A stretch of 64,000 nt of DNA from Lachnospiraceae bacterium (GTDB lineage Bacteria > Bacillota > Clostridia > Lachnospirales > Lachnospiraceae): assembly GCA_029068555.1 (NCBI GenBank), contig JAIECJ010000029.1, forward strand, positions 1 to 64,000. The letters run 5' to 3'. The notes under the pieces are model-generated. The model was given only the letters and a program-made list of their open reading frames with translations. It had not been told where the DNA came from and made no database searches. Positions 30,284-40,618 of the stretch are shown piece after piece (positions within the stretch are counted from its first letter, which is position 1; the number at the start of each line of letters is the position of its first letter). The position numbers and the translations under genes were made by a program.

Positions 30284-32518
30284 TTACTTTTTCAATTTCG
30301 TTTTAAGAACATACCATAATGCACCTGTAATACACACAGAAGAATACGTGCCACATACAATACCTACCATAAGCGGAAGGGCAAACTCTCTGATGGAAGT
30401 AACACCTAGTACATACAGTGCAGCAACCATGATAAATGTTGTCAGTGAAGTAAAAATACTTCTGGAAAGTGTCTGGCTAATACTTCTGTTGACAAGCTCG
30501 TCAAGCGTGTCCTTTTTCAGCATCGATCCGAGATTCTCTCTGATACGGTCAAATATTACAATTGTCGCATTGATAGAATAGCCGACAATCGTAAGCATAC
30601 ATGCAATAAAGGTACTGCCTACAGATACTTTCGCAACCGCATAGAATGTAAGGACAACAAGTACGTCATGCAGCAGCGCCGCAACAGAACTTGCTGCAAA
30701 CCGGATATCCTTAAACCGGAACCAAATATAAATCAACATACAAATTGTGGATATAATGACCGCAATAACAGCGTCGCTCTTCATCTCGGAACTAATGGTG
30801 GAACTAATCGTCTCAGCGGTGATAAGCTCCTTGTTTACGCTGAACTTGTCAACCAGAGCTGTTTCCAGTTCCTGCCTCTCATCCACATTGAGCTCCCTTG
30901 TCTTGAAAATAACCTCATTGGAACCCGCAACCTTCTGCACCTGAATCGCACCATCACCTGTCACACCGCTGAATACTGGAACAACATTTGCGTCAATTGC
31001 AGCAAGATCCATGTCCTCGTTGAATGTAACATTCGTGGAAGTACCACCCACAAAGTCAAGACTATAGTTCAATACCTTTCCTGTCGATGCACTGTTGATA
31101 CCCATAAATACAAATCCCAGAACAATCACAGCAATGGAACATACAAAGAAAATATTTTTCTTTCCAAGGAAATTAACAATGCCTTTCTCCTTATTCGTAC
31201 CATAAAACTTAACGTCCTTCAGCCCAACTGCGAAAAATGCCCTGAGAATCATTCTTGTCACAAAAAGCGCCGTAAACATAGACAGAACAATACCAAGACC
31301 AAGTGTGTATGCGAATCCCTTAACCGTTCCAGAGCCCTTGATGCCAAGCACAAAAGCCGCAATCAGTGTTGTCACATTGCCGTCAATAATTGCAGAAAGC
31401 GCTTTCTGGAATCCGGTGTCTATTGCATTCCTGACAGTCTTACCTGCTGTGAGCTCCTCCCGGATACGCGCAAATATGATAACGTTTGCGTCAACTGCCA
31501 TACCAATAGACAGAATAATACCCGCAATGCCCGGAAGTGTCAGTGTAATCTCAAACATATTCAAGCACAATACAATCAGACATGTATAAATAATTAACGC
31601 AAGTACAGACGAAAAACCCGGAATACGGTATACAATAATCATGAACAACGCAATAATAATCAGTCCAATGATGGCTGCCTGTAAACTTGTATTGACAGCC
31701 TCTTCTCCAAGTTGTGCACCTACCACGTTGGAGCGCAGCTCCTCAAGCTCAAGCTTCAGCCCGCCGATACGAATCTGACTTGCAAGTTTCTCCGCCTCCT
31801 CAAAGCTTCCCATACCTGAAATCTGTGCCTTGCCATCCCTGAGCGCTGCCTGCACTCTTGGCACACTGATAAAGTCGCCATCATAATAGATACCGATGGT
31901 CTCTCCCTTTGAAAACGCCTTTGTCGTAGCATCGGCAAACTTTGTCGTGCCTTCACTTGTGAACGTAAGGTCTACCACAAACTGGCTGTTTCCCAGTTCG
32001 TCATTTGCAGATCCCCCCTGTGCCGCACTGACATCCGTACCCTCCAGGACAATACCACCATCGGCTTGCAGCTCCTCAATTGTCTTGTCCAGCGAATACC
32101 CAGTAGCACCAGAACCTGTATACGAATAGTTTTGGTTACCATCATCATCCGTCTGTGCTATAAAGTACAATGCACCTGGTCTTCCCAAATCCTCAAGAAT
32201 CGAATTGGCATCCGATACGCCGGGAATCTCGATATTGATACGGTCAGATCCTTCCTGATATACCTGTGCCTCTGTACTGTATACCTCCACGCGTTTCTGC
32301 AGCTTATAGATTGTATCACTCATATCTGCGGCGGAGGGCGTCTCATCCCCCACTACTTGATAAGTAATGCTCACACCGCCAGCAAGGTCAAGCCCCTGCT
32401 TGATTCCGGATGCGGCACCCGCTTTTTCTGTGCCAATACCCCATATTGCCACATATCCTAAAGCCGCCATGATCAGCACTGTCAGGATTAAAGTAATAAT
32501 GCCTTTATTTTTTTTCAT
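30284..32518 (-). CDS. secDF: Fused protein translocase subunit SecDF
   Basis: 744 aa; GLDLAGGVSITY, GMAVDANVIIFARIREEL, SLDFVGGTSTNV, GYSINATIVIFDRIREN. Confidence 0.96.
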   Translation of the reverse strand: MKKNKGIITLILTVLIMAALGYVAIWGIGTEKAGAASGIKQGLDLAGGVSITYQVVGDETPSAADMSDTIYKLQKRVEVYSTEAQVYQEGSDRINIEIPGVSDANSILEDLGRPGALYFIAQTDDDGNQNYSYTGSGATGYSLDKTIEELQADGGIVLEGTDVSAAQGGSANDELGNSQFVVDLTFTSEGTTKFADATTKAFSKGETIGIYYDGDFISVPRVQAALRDGKAQISGMGSFEEAEKLASQIRIGGLKLELEELRSNVVGAQLGEEAVNTSLQAAIIGLIIIALFMIIVYRIPGFSSVLALIIYTCLIVLCLNMFEITLTLPGIAGIILSIGMAVDANVIIFARIREELTAGKTVRNAIDTGFQKALSAIIDGNVTTLIAAFVLGIKGSGTVKGFAYTLGLGIVLSMFTALFVTRMILRAFFAVGLKDVKFYGTNKEKGIVNFLGKKNIFFVCSIAVIVLGFVFMGINSASTGKVLNYSLDFVGGTSTNVTFNEDMDLAAIDANVVPVFSGVTGDGAIQVQKVAGSNEVIFKTRELNVDERQELETALVDKFSVNKELITAETISSTISSEMKSDAVIAVIISTICMLIYIWFRFKDIRFAASSVAALLHDVLVVLTFYAVAKVSVGSTFIACMLTIVGYSINATIVIFDRIRENLGSMLKKDTLDELVNRSISQTLSRSIFTSLTTFIMVAALYVLGVTSIREFALPLMVGIVCGTYSSVCITGALWYVLKTKLKK

Positions 32519-32570
32519 TGCCTGTATACTCCTTTACTTTCTTTTGCTTATGCCCATAACGTAATTTTTC

Positions 32571-32710
32571 ATAACAATTCAGTACCCTCATAGACATGAG
32601 CATCAAACCATGCAAAACTCACTTCGTAATTGCTTGATGCGTTGCTGCCACTATGCTTTCATATGGATTTTGCATCGCAGTGCAAAATCCGTGCGCTGAA
32701 CAATTACTAT
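32571..32710 (-). repeat. Family C two-hairpin element, copy 3
   Basis: Hairpins 32600-32640 (GCATCAA..TTGATGC) and 32665-32690 (GGATTTTGCA-tcgcag-TGCAAAATCC); ends AACAATTCAG / GCTGAACAATT. Confidence 0.75.
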
Positions 32711-32714
32711 AATT

Positions 32715-34094
32715 CTATGTTTCTTGGGCAAGAGCAGCCTTTATCATGATTGCACATTCAACACGTTTCCTCTGAAGCTCACAGCCCAAGTCGTAAGCAT
32801 CATTGATGTTTCCATGAAAATTGTAGGAATTTGCCGCACATCCTCCGCTGCAATAGAATTTTGCGAAACAGTTCTTACATTTTTCCTTTGAATATACATT
32901 GCATGCCTTAAATTGTTCACGGATATCCATATTGGTTATCCCCTCGTCCACATTTCCCATAAGAAACGATTCCTGACCAACAAACTGGTGACATGGGTAA
33001 AAATCCCCCCACGGCGTCACAGCCAGATATTCTGTCCCCGAACCACAGCCCGACAGTCTCTTGTAGACACACGGACCACCTTTCAAGTCTATCATAAAAT
33101 GAAAGAAATTAAAACCCCTTCCTTCCTTATGTCTTCGAATCATCTCGGCAGCAAGCTTGTCATACTCTGCAAGAATTTCAGGAATATCCTCCGGTACAAG
33201 TGCATAGTCCTCACTCTCGGGCGCCACAACCGGTTCCACGGATATCTGCTGAAATCCCAAATCAGCCAGATGGCACACATCCGATGCAAAATCTTTATTA
33301 AAATGCGTGAAAGTACCTCGCACATAATAGTTTGTCTGATTTCTGCTCTCTGCCACCTTTTTAAACTTCGGAATCACCAAATCATAACTGCCCTGTCCGC
33401 CGGCAAGCGGACGCATTTTGTCATGAACTTCTTTCCTTCCGTCTACACTCAACACAATATTTGCCATCTCCCTGTTTGCAAAATCTATTATGTCGTCATT
33501 CAGCAACACACCATTTGTCGTCAGTGTAAAGCGAAACTTCTTGTGATTCGGTTCCTCAAGGCTTCTGCCATATGCGACCAAATCCTTTACAACCTGCCAG
33601 TTCATCAGGGGTTCTCCGCCGAAAAAATCCACTTCAAGGTTTACGCGGCTGCCTGAATTTGCTACAAGAAAATCCAGCGCCTTTTTGCCGACCTCATAAC
33701 TCATAACGGCTCGTCTGCCATGGTACTCCCCCTCCTCCGCAAAGCAGTATTTGCACTTAAGGTTGCAATCATGCGCTATATGCAGGCAGAGTGCTTTCAC
33801 TACTGTCTCGCGGTTTCTAAAGGCGTCAATGCTCTTTTCATAAATATCCTCTGTGAAAAGCATTCCGTCCGCTTTCAATTCATATATTTCATCGACAAGC
33901 TCACGCAGCTCCTCCGTCTTATCCACAAATTTTTTTTCTAATGTGTCTAGTGCTGTTTCCTTATCCACACCTTCAAGTTGGTTCTCCACCATGCAGGCAA
34001 TCACGTCATAGACACTGTCATCAACAACATGTACAGAACCGCTGTTGACATCCAGGACAATATTGTATCCATTATTTTTATACTGATGTATCAA
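32715..34094 (-). CDS. SCIFF peptide maturase (radical SAM/SPASM thioether-forming enzyme)
   Basis: LIHQYKNNGYNIVLDVNSGSVHVVDD N-term, CNLKCKYC radical SAM motif, C-terminal SPASM cysteines; TTG start at 34094 preceded by AGGAAGG (track start 34184). Confidence 0.93.
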   Translation of the reverse strand: MIHQYKNNGYNIVLDVNSGSVHVVDDSVYDVIACMVENQLEGVDKETALDTLEKKFVDKTEELRELVDEIYELKADGMLFTEDIYEKSIDAFRNRETVVKALCLHIAHDCNLKCKYCFAEEGEYHGRRAVMSYEVGKKALDFLVANSGSRVNLEVDFFGGEPLMNWQVVKDLVAYGRSLEEPNHKKFRFTLTTNGVLLNDDIIDFANREMANIVLSVDGRKEVHDKMRPLAGGQGSYDLVIPKFKKVAESRNQTNYYVRGTFTHFNKDFASDVCHLADLGFQQISVEPVVAPESEDYALVPEDIPEILAEYDKLAAEMIRRHKEGRGFNFFHFMIDLKGGPCVYKRLSGCGSGTEYLAVTPWGDFYPCHQFVGQESFLMGNVDEGITNMDIREQFKACNVYSKEKCKNCFAKFYCSGGCAANSYNFHGNINDAYDLGCELQRKRVECAIMIKAALAQET

Positions 34095-34188
34095 TTTCTT
34101 TTCCTTCCTATTCTCCATATAAACGAATCCACATGCAATATGGCATTGCTTCATATAACTTATCATATTCGAATGATTACACACATAA

Positions 34189-34220
34189 TAAGCAGCGATT
34201 AAAATAAAAACCGCTGCTTA
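34189..34220 (-). promoter_or_regulatory. Hairpin between SCIFF peptide gene and maturase gene
   Basis: TAAGCAGCG / CGCTGCTTA 9-bp perfect stem with U-rich loop (minus strand). Confidence 0.5.
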
Positions 34221-34308
34221 CTTATAAGTCTACTTTATAAGTGTTCTGTTATAAATCTTCTGTTGTAAAATCCTTTAGCAAAATACACTGTAACATCTGT
34301 ATATATAC

Positions 34309-34452
34309 TTATTTTGTATGCTCACAGCTCTGATTTCCAACAGTGCAGGATGTCTTACATGCCGACTGGCAGGATGTCTGACACTCACCGCATCCACCTT
34401 TCTTTACAGACTCTTTATAGTCTCTAGTCGTTAATGTCTTAATGTGCTTCAT
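34309..34452 (-). CDS. SCIFF (six-cysteine) RiPP-like precursor peptide; absent from ORF track
   Basis: My translation: MKHIKTLTTRDYKESVKKGGCGECQTSCQSACKTSCTVGNQSCEHTK*, 47 aa, 6 Cys, upstream of its maturase. Confidence 0.95.
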   Translation of the reverse strand: MKHIKTLTTRDYKESVKKGGCGECQTSCQSACKTSCTVGNQSCEHTK

Positions 34453-34560
34453 ACCAATTGCCTCCTTAAAAGTTATTTCGTTATATGTTGTTTTAGTCTA
34501 AAGTAGTATATCACATATTTTTATATCCGAAAAGTATTTTTTTTAATTCTCTACACTTTT

Positions 34561-36150: not shown

Positions 36151-36522
36151 TCACCCAAGCATTCCGCCAAGCATCCCGCTGCCAAGGCAAATCAGGAGTG
36201 TTGTAATACAGGAATTACTTATCAGTGTAAATCCGGGATCTGCAAAAGCCGATACTGCACAAATAATGGCAAAGTATGCTGCTCCTGCCGCCATTCCCCA
36301 TATAAATCTCCGACTTGCCGCTCCCTTTGAAAAAAAGAGTCCCGCCAAAAGAGAAGATATGCAATAAATAACGATAATACTAATGTCAACTACATTCTCG
36401 CCAAGCGAAAACTTGTACAGTAGCCCTGCCACCGCCAGGAGCAAGACCCCTGTTATCAGATATGCCGCCATAAGGCACTTAAATAATGCAATCAGCCTTT
36501 CCGTACCCCACGTATTTTTCAC
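36151..36522 (-). CDS. TIGR04086-like small integral membrane protein
   Basis: 123 aa, about four hydrophobic segments; near SCIFF/secDF as commonly seen for this family. Confidence 0.65.
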   Translation of the reverse strand: MKNTWGTERLIALFKCLMAAYLITGVLLLAVAGLLYKFSLGENVVDISIIVIYCISSLLAGLFFSKGAASRRFIWGMAAGAAYFAIICAVSAFADPGFTLISNSCITTLLICLGSGMLGGMLG

Positions 36523-38096: not shown

Positions 38097-38126
38097 AAAA
38101 ATTGAGTGCTTTCGCACTCAATTTTT
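38097..38126. terminator. Bidirectional terminator between convergent genes
   Basis: AAAAATTGAGTGC-tttc-GCACTCAATTTTT perfect palindrome. Confidence 0.92.
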
Positions 38127-40447
38127 TACATATCAGAATAAAACTTGTATGTATTCATCATCTCATCCGGCACCTCTGGCGTAACCTTCTGTAGTGCCTT
38201 TATTTTCAGCTCAAACTCCTGCTTCTTCTTCTGGGCATTCCGAAAACTTCGCGCCTGTGCCAATTCATATGGTCTCTGAACATTCAGTTTCATTCTAAGC
38301 TCTTTTGCAAACGGACAATATGTCGCAAGTATCTCCCTTGCCACCTTATTCATCTTCATGGAACCGTTTGCCTCATTCTTAATCCAGGACTCATAGTCTA
38401 TCAGAAATGTCTCTCTTGAATTATTTCTTGACTTCTGAATCTGAAGCTTAACCTTGTCGCGCGCTTCGTCTGACAAATCCCTATTTTTCCTGTAAAACTG
38501 GATATAGTCCATGTACTCTGAAGTAAGTGATTTTACTTTTACATCATTCCATGCCATACCCTGTATACAACGGCAGAGTTCCCAGCGGAAACGTCCAAAT
38601 AACTTAACCATCATATCATCTATGTTGGAATTTGTCATAATAGGGAAGCAGAAACGGCCTGGCGTTCCTTTATTTTTTCCGCCAATTTCCTGCCACATGG
38701 ACGCGTTAGTCCCAAACAGCGGGAACAAAATCACATCAGGATATACATTCCGCATGACAGTTTCATTTATAATTTTCAATTCTGTATTGGAATAAATAAC
38801 TTCCCTATAAAATACAGAATAATCAACCTGCGTAAGTTTCTGCACACTTTCGTTTATTTTCTTTTTGGTGATAAGTATTTTATCCAGATATCCAAATATT
38901 GCTTCCTTGTATAGAATCGGCATGTAAGAGGACGGCTGACCATAAAGAGTACGTGTATTGCTCATCTGCATATTCATAACCTCATACTCCACGCGCTTAT
39001 CCATATTCTGAAGCAATGCTTTTTGTTCATTCTCCGTAATTTCCCCCTGTTTCTTGAGTGAACGGAGATTCTCAACATAATCCTCATCAAACTCACTCTT
39101 TGATGGATCACGCTTACCTTCATGTATCATGTCAAGCCATTCCATCATTGTAACCACTTTACATGGTCCCTCATTTTTATCTGGCTCAATGCTACACAAA
39201 AATCTTAAATGTTCCTCGTCAAGCAGCCGTTCATCAAGCATGCCATAATTCATAAAAAGCTCCACTGATTTTGGTGGATGCATCAGCCCTTCTTTTATCT
39301 TTCGATAGCATGACAAATATAGTCTAAATACCAGCGGCGTAATTGTCTTTTTCGCCTTCTTGACATCATCCTCCACTGACATCCTGTCCGGCACCTCTAC
39401 AAGATGATTCACATTTTTTCTGAGTGTATCATTATCTTCATCGCTAAGTGTTGCGAATTTAAGAATCTGTTCCATGGAACCTTTCAGCGAAGCGACATCG
39501 CGCCTAATATCCTCTTCTTTCTCTTCCTGGGACTTCTGTTCCACAACAGGTGCCTCACCAGAACTCAACCCGTCAATTTTTCCTCTCAGATGCGCTGCAT
39601 CAAAGTCGAACACACTCTCTGTCTGGTTTTTAACCTCCTTATACTGGAATGCCATCTCGTCCGCTATCCCGCTCAGCAGCACAATCATTTCATTTGGGAT
39701 ATCATCCTTTTCCTTAATCTCCTGCGCTGTATCGCAGATACAGTCAAACAGGCTGTTTCTTGGTCTCAGGCAGACTACTTCTATCAGATTTTTAATATAT
39801 TCCGTTACCTCGGCACAGTCTTCAAGAAGCGCAGATGAGAGCTCTATAATCTCATTAACCTGAAAGTTTGCCATCTCCTCGCGGTATGAAAAGTAAACTT
39901 TGTTGGCACTCAGCGGAATCTTTGCCGCCTCCTCATAATATGCAATCCTGTATTCGTTGACCCCCTGTGTATCTTCGTAGGGCTGAAGTTCCTCAAGCTC
40001 CTCAATGCCAATTGCCGGAACTTCAAATGCCTTACAAATATTTTTATATTCTGCATAGCTTCCCTGAACAAATGAACATAAACGCTCCGCGCGCTCAATA
40101 AGACTTGATTTCAATCGGTATATATCTATCGCTGTCCGAAATTGTGAAGAAACCATAATCGCACGATAATCCGCATTTTTCGAAACAATATTTTTTATCG
40201 TCTGCTCTCCTTGCGTTGGAAGCGCATATATCACAGAATCCTCCAGCGCAGTATAGGTTGCATGGTATGTCTGATCGTTATATCCATTCAGGGCAAGATA
40301 GTTTCCTTGCGACCTTATCATTTTTACATACTCCCCCTGCATAATTACCTTACCGGAAAGAATAATTCCTATCTGGGTTAATTCCTCACCTTTCTCAAAA
40401 ATGACCTCACCTTTTTTTACAATATTTTTTCCGCTGACCTTTAACAT
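38126..40447 (-). CDS. Large protein with N-terminal cyclic-nucleotide-binding-like domain, remainder of unknown function
   Basis: 773 aa; GEVIFEKGEELTQIGIILSGKVIMQGEYVKMIRSQGNYLALNGY resembles a CNBD fold; no recognised domain elsewhere. Confidence 0.7.
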   Translation of the reverse strand: MLKVSGKNIVKKGEVIFEKGEELTQIGIILSGKVIMQGEYVKMIRSQGNYLALNGYNDQTYHATYTALEDSVIYALPTQGEQTIKNIVSKNADYRAIMVSSQFRTAIDIYRLKSSLIERAERLCSFVQGSYAEYKNICKAFEVPAIGIEELEELQPYEDTQGVNEYRIAYYEEAAKIPLSANKVYFSYREEMANFQVNEIIELSSALLEDCAEVTEYIKNLIEVVCLRPRNSLFDCICDTAQEIKEKDDIPNEMIVLLSGIADEMAFQYKEVKNQTESVFDFDAAHLRGKIDGLSSGEAPVVEQKSQEEKEEDIRRDVASLKGSMEQILKFATLSDEDNDTLRKNVNHLVEVPDRMSVEDDVKKAKKTITPLVFRLYLSCYRKIKEGLMHPPKSVELFMNYGMLDERLLDEEHLRFLCSIEPDKNEGPCKVVTMMEWLDMIHEGKRDPSKSEFDEDYVENLRSLKKQGEITENEQKALLQNMDKRVEYEVMNMQMSNTRTLYGQPSSYMPILYKEAIFGYLDKILITKKKINESVQKLTQVDYSVFYREVIYSNTELKIINETVMRNVYPDVILFPLFGTNASMWQEIGGKNKGTPGRFCFPIMTNSNIDDMMVKLFGRFRWELCRCIQGMAWNDVKVKSLTSEYMDYIQFYRKNRDLSDEARDKVKLQIQKSRNNSRETFLIDYESWIKNEANGSMKMNKVAREILATYCPFAKELRMKLNVQRPYELAQARSFRNAQKKKQEFELKIKALQKVTPEVPDEMMNTYKFYSDM

Positions 40448-40489
40448 CTGTCTCCCTCCATTTGGCTATGCTCATAAGTTACTGACTTC

Positions 40490-40618
40490 ATAACTATTCA
40501 GCGCCCTCATAGTTACAAACATCAAGCTATGCTCGTGATTGGCTTGATGTGTTGCTGTCACAATGCTTTCATACAGATTTTGCAATGTAGTGCAAAATCC
40601 TGTGCTGAGTAGTTACCT
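40490..40618 (-). repeat. Family C two-hairpin element, copy 4
   Basis: Hairpins 40520-40549 (CATCAAGC..GCTTGATG) and 40576-40599 (GATTTTGCA-atgtag-TGCAAAATC); ends TAACTATTCAGC / GCTGAGTAGTTA. Confidence 0.78.

Follow-up and report, generated by a model that had tools for sequence, protein, structure and literature searches.

A stretch of 64,000 nucleotides of Lachnospiraceae DNA (hereafter the window) very probably contains a canonical SCIFF ranthipeptide locus, and this applies both to family membership and to the modification step. The locus consists of a precursor gene, scfA, and a maturase gene, scfB (Table 1). The window copy is one more member of a widespread family, and it is rather its relatives that provide the more interesting observations. 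These are precursors with glycine at position 37, which favour Thr34 over Thr37 as the general cross-link acceptor between conflicting published assignments, and lineages with the precursor and without the maturase, in which the peptide's role is separable from that of the thioether.

Table 1. Features of the SCIFF locus and its surroundings in the window.
Feature	Coordinates	Strand	Basis
scfA, SCIFF precursor gene, 47 aa	34309..34452	-	TIGR03973 and PF13165
AAGGAGG, ribosome-binding site of scfA	34461..34467	-	sequence, 8 nt 5' of ATG
scfA leader, residues 1-20, Gly-Gly end	34393..34452	-	alignment of 80 loci
scfA core C21..E44, six Cys, proposed thioether Cys32-Thr34	34321..34392	-	conservation; cross-link by analogy with CteA
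Hairpin, terminator-like, weak T tail	34187..34222	-	fold of the scfA-scfB gap
AGGAAGG, ribosome-binding site of scfB	34103..34109	-	sequence; kept before TTG in L121, L122 and L125
scfB, SCIFF maturase (scfB/CteB family), 459 aa, corrected start TTG 34094	32715..34094	-	TIGR03974, CteB identity
Radical SAM motif CxxxCxxC, C110/C114/C117	33744..33767	-	alignment to CteB
secDF fusion, conserved downstream neighbour	30284..32518	-	TIGR01129 and TIGR00966 over cut-off
TIGR04086/DUF3792 membrane protein	36151..36522	-	85.6 bits, cut-off 30

SCIFF genes are easily overlooked due to their small size (PMC5300114). The preliminary description had proposed a 47-aa ORF as the precursor, and we found both its coordinates and its sequence to be right. 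The proposed identity was borne out by the precursor HMM, as TIGR03973 gave 86.7 bits against a cut-off of 50 (E=7e-25), and PF13165 gave 86.5 bits against a cut-off of 27 (E=1e-24). Considering its short length, one might suppose that this frame arose by chance and yields no product. In our view, the HMM search and the conservation data already rule out this extremely improbable idea: the former E-value was obtained with a curated equivalog model, the cognate maturase adjoins, the ribosome-binding site is good, and a near-identical peptide is present in 78 relatives. GGAGG-like sites also precede scfA at other loci. In the genome from which the window comes, a single precursor and a single maturase exceed the cut-offs, and they lie side by side. 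A consensus scan for the scfA promoter gave promoter-like sites no more often than in shuffled sequences, a PDB sequence search with the SCIFF peptide returned no matches, and neither did an Rfam scan of the window.

The cysteines of the window peptide occupy positions 21, 24, 28, 32, 36 and 43, and this spacing (C-x2-C-x3-C-x3-C-x3-C-x6-C) was found in all 80 loci of a class-wide set covering about 49 families. In these loci the leader is variable except for residues 3-7 (H/R-I/V-K-T-L/I) and Gly20. Fifteen of the 24 core positions are invariant (C21, E23, C24, S27, C28, Q29, S30, A31, C32, K33, T34, S35, C36, N40 and C43), and their codons vary synonymously. Thr34 is present in 80 of 80 loci, and position 37 holds Thr in 64 and Gly in the other 16, each of which has an adjacent maturase. 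A Cys32-Thr34 link was reported upon co-expression of CteA and CteB, a Cys32-Thr37 link was reported in vitro for two precursors, and the discrepancy was called unresolved in a review (all in PMC8326336). If all SCIFFs are linked alike, Gly37 in 16 maturase-linked loci means that Thr37 is not the general acceptor, and conservation points to Thr34 as most likely taking this part. A variant core, CKECANSCQSACKTSCTVANLxCE, is found in one family (L077, L078, L104, L105 and L106); it has Lys22, Ala25, Asn26 and Leu41, and its cysteines and KTSC are unchanged.

The neighbouring radical SAM gene had been taken for the maturase, and the maturase HMM agrees (TIGR03974, 787 bits against a cut-off of 425). 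Its end at 32715 had been placed correctly; the start proposed at GTG 34184 lies too far 5'. We assign the start to TTG 34094 because AGGAAGG precedes this codon, the TIGR03974 model and CteB both start at its residue, and in relatives L122-L125 an in-frame stop lies a few codons 5' of the equivalent TTG. The protein read from this codon begins MIHQYKNNGYNIVLDV, a start common to relatives. Its N-terminus, where a leader-binding RRE would lie, can be aligned to CteB from residue 1, and nine further cysteines (C342, C350, C368, C406, C409, C415, C419, C438 and C447) all correspond to cysteines of CteB, those of the auxiliary clusters being conserved. The Pfam SPASM model scored 21.1 bits, just under its cut-off of 21.5.

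By analogy with CteA and CteB, the pathway probably runs as follows. The scfA gene, whose sequence is in the window, would be expressed as a 47-aa precursor, and the leader of this peptide would dock on the N-terminal RRE of ScfB (PMC8326336). ScfB, using SAM and its auxiliary SPASM clusters, would then join Cys32 to a threonine by a non-alpha thioether, with Thr34 as the most likely acceptor; the step itself is modelled on CteA/CteB and the choice of Thr34 is backed by conservation. Release after Gly19-Gly20 would presumably be carried out by a protease encoded elsewhere.

The two genes are separated by a strong hairpin (z=-2.1 for the whole gap). When terminator-like hairpins are defined in one simple way, such a structure occurs in the scfA-scfB gap of 55 of 79 Lachnospiraceae loci and 50 of 67 diverse loci, against about 6-7 expected from shuffling in each set. 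The window hairpin was not picked up by a stricter consensus terminator scan that allowed shorter loops only. Judging from sequence, the hairpin may cause partial termination after the precursor, and precursor mRNA would then probably exceed maturase mRNA in amount.

On the minus strand the genes are arranged in the order GH25 protein, scfA, hairpin, scfB, secDF, TraX-like, thioesterase-like and recJ, where the thioesterase-like gene (which has no family match) and recJ were assigned by eye. As had been noted before, secDF directly follows the maturase, beyond a 196-nt gap holding a dispersed repeat. The claim that no exporter or protease is adjacent also stood, as none was recognised among the GH25, TIGR04086, CNNM/CBS, secDF and TraX-like genes scanned. 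The nearest named relatives of the window belong to Lachnospiraceae. Of 80 maturase loci in this family, 79 have SCIFF upstream; in one of them (L127) the precursor is cut by the contig start, with the core intact, and at the single locus where SCIFF was not seen (L164) the contig starts 183 bases upstream. The next gene is secDF in 76 of the 77 loci with enough downstream sequence, L184 being the exception. The order scfA-hairpin-scfB-secDF is therefore the usual one in Lachnospiraceae, and the window copy is ordinary.

The repeat in the scfB-secDF gap is an intergenic element of about 140 bp, located at 32550-32714(-) and again at 40487-40616(-), with 11 further matches of 71-86% identity in its own genome. 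Its absence from the same gap of the nearest relative, L121, suggests a small mobile (MITE-like) element. Elsewhere in the window, 38126-40447(-) encodes a protein of 773 aa whose N-terminal domain is cyclic-nucleotide-binding-like and which matched no other family.

Within the class-wide set, whose families were counted by hand from genome labels, the maturase lies directly 3' of SCIFF in 70 loci; in the remaining 10 it is not adjacent, and is present elsewhere in all 10 genomes. The TIGR04086/DUF3792 family occurs 5' of SCIFF in about 33 of the 80 loci, and clusters that gave matches to yajC and TIGR04086 precede SCIFF in about 33-36. It could be proposed that SCIFF acts at or with SecDF/YajC, and that this is the reason for the yajC-TIGR04086-scfA-scfB-secDF block. 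The near-constant position of secDF in Lachnospiraceae, its presence near SCIFF in 35 of the 80 class-wide loci (22 families) and the upstream clusters all agree with such a role, as does the fact that in L040, L058, L059 and L087 scfA stays beside secDF despite a maturase located elsewhere in the genome. However, secDF is not nearby in 45 of 80 loci, precursors without maturase are found in unrelated places, and conserved housekeeping gene order accounts for the linkage without any functional tie. We thus consider a role in Sec function improbable; the secDF linkage can reflect ancestral gene order.

It was expected from published work that every ScfA is accompanied by ScfB (PMC5300114). Among 196 evenly sampled Clostridia genomes, 163 contain the precursor and 162 contain the maturase, and these are nearly always the same genomes. 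In one genome, G094, which is 99% complete, the precursor is intact and a search at E<=1e-10 gave no relative of the maturase. In its family the precursor is present in 7 of 37 genomes and a maturase over the cut-off in none, and in its order, which comprises small-genome Clostridia, the precursor is present in 22 of 117 genomes and the maturase in 4. In total, 18 of the 22 precursor genomes of this order carry an orphan precursor (L201, L233-L238 and L246-L256); they represent three families, 17 of them are at least 90% complete, and most are drafts. Looser maturase searches in these genomes found no relative at E<=1e-8 to 1e-10 in 14 of the 18, and the remaining 4 gave weak, distant radical SAM matches only. 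The orphan precursors contradict the expectation cited above.

Contamination is argued against by neighbours common to different species: L233 and L237 are both flanked by recG and, on the opposite side, by gatB (from which L237 is separated by two additional genes), and L251, L252 and L253 are each followed by mutS2. By parsimony, the ancestors of these syntenic pairs would already have lacked the maturase. The weakest orphans are those of G281, G293 and G222, as they are located close to the end of a contig or on a short one, and the G+C of the peptide gene is raised. Core types are mixed within the order (TVGNQ, TVANQ, GIANQ, GVANQ and AVANQ), so repeated gain or repeated loss of the maturase is possible. 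Another genome, G175, was rejected as maturase-less, as its contig ends about 200 nt past scfA and a separate contig carries part of a maturase. The maturase of G020 is split in two, its assembly being fragmented, and was counted as present. A 24399-aa open frame at L240 was dismissed as a product of masked bases (1474 N in a 4005-base locus).

None of the 18 orphan peptides has lost any of the six cysteines, and QSACKTSC is unaltered in each. Comparison of seven pairs showed 4-15 synonymous codon differences in the core and 0-1 that alter a residue, so the orphan cores look to be under strong purifying selection. Residue changes are common in the leaders of the same pairs, where the counts for L253 are inflated by a small insertion in its leader. 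Comparing the leaders of maturase-less genomes revealed no clear relaxation at any position (position 4, p=0.056). A terminator-like hairpin lies within 120 nt downstream of 8 orphans, against 0.5 expected. Two orphans (L254 and L255) have Lys in place of the otherwise invariant Glu23 (CGKC; p=0.04 for E23K, uncorrected).

As precursors without maturase exist, the thioether is not needed everywhere, and as the peptide is nearly unchanged in one order without the enzyme, it may act on its own. Whether the SCIFF peptide has a selected function without thioether maturation, the thioether being a refinement of a six-cysteine peptide, seems to us evenly balanced. Orphan peptides might conceivably be modified by an unrelated enzyme. 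A more specific proposal is that SCIFF is a metal- or redox-handling peptide in which the six cysteines are functional and the thioether only tunes them. Both the retention of all six cysteines in the maturase-less genomes and the scarcity of residue changes among the synonymous ones speak for it, but the conserved non-Cys residues (QSA, KTS and N40) imply more than metal ligands, and we find this proposal rather doubtful.

The biological role had been called unknown in the preliminary description. This holds only in part: as two reviews summarise it (PMC8326336, PMC8102284), disruption in C. beijerinckii of the genes for the precursor and the radical SAM enzyme decreased the expression of sporulation genes and increased that of agr (Chen et al. 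2020). One could read these changes, as far as the reviews relate them, as a sign that mature SCIFF is a secreted quorum-sensing signal. Such a reading is unlikely, since a core near-identical over about 49 families gives no room for species specificity, none of the adjacent genes was recognised as an exporter, and the agr change can be indirect. As the core hardly changes across Clostridia, a role inside the producer is the most likely one, and a bacteriocin or a species-specific pheromone is disfavoured. We would give a conserved role inside the producer roughly an even chance of being correct; it is perhaps regulatory or redox/metal-related.

Compared with known members of the SCIFF/ScfA family (CteA of Clostridium thermocellum and Tte1186a of Caldanaerobacter subterraneus), the window peptide has the same length, six-cysteine spacing, leader motif and core, and differs by ordinary variation of leader and tail and nothing more; the fourth cysteine is Cys32 in CteA as well. 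The window maturase is 61% identical over 445 residues to CteB (ScfB/CteB, TIGR03974; structures 5WGG and 5WHY), from which it differs in its TTG start and in no further notable sequence feature. PapB-type ranthipeptide maturases (NF047865) and the not_ScfB group (NF040492) belong to the same radical SAM/SPASM superfamily; however, the window maturase scores below both cut-offs (272 bits against 340 and 580 against 855, respectively) and thus falls outside both groups.
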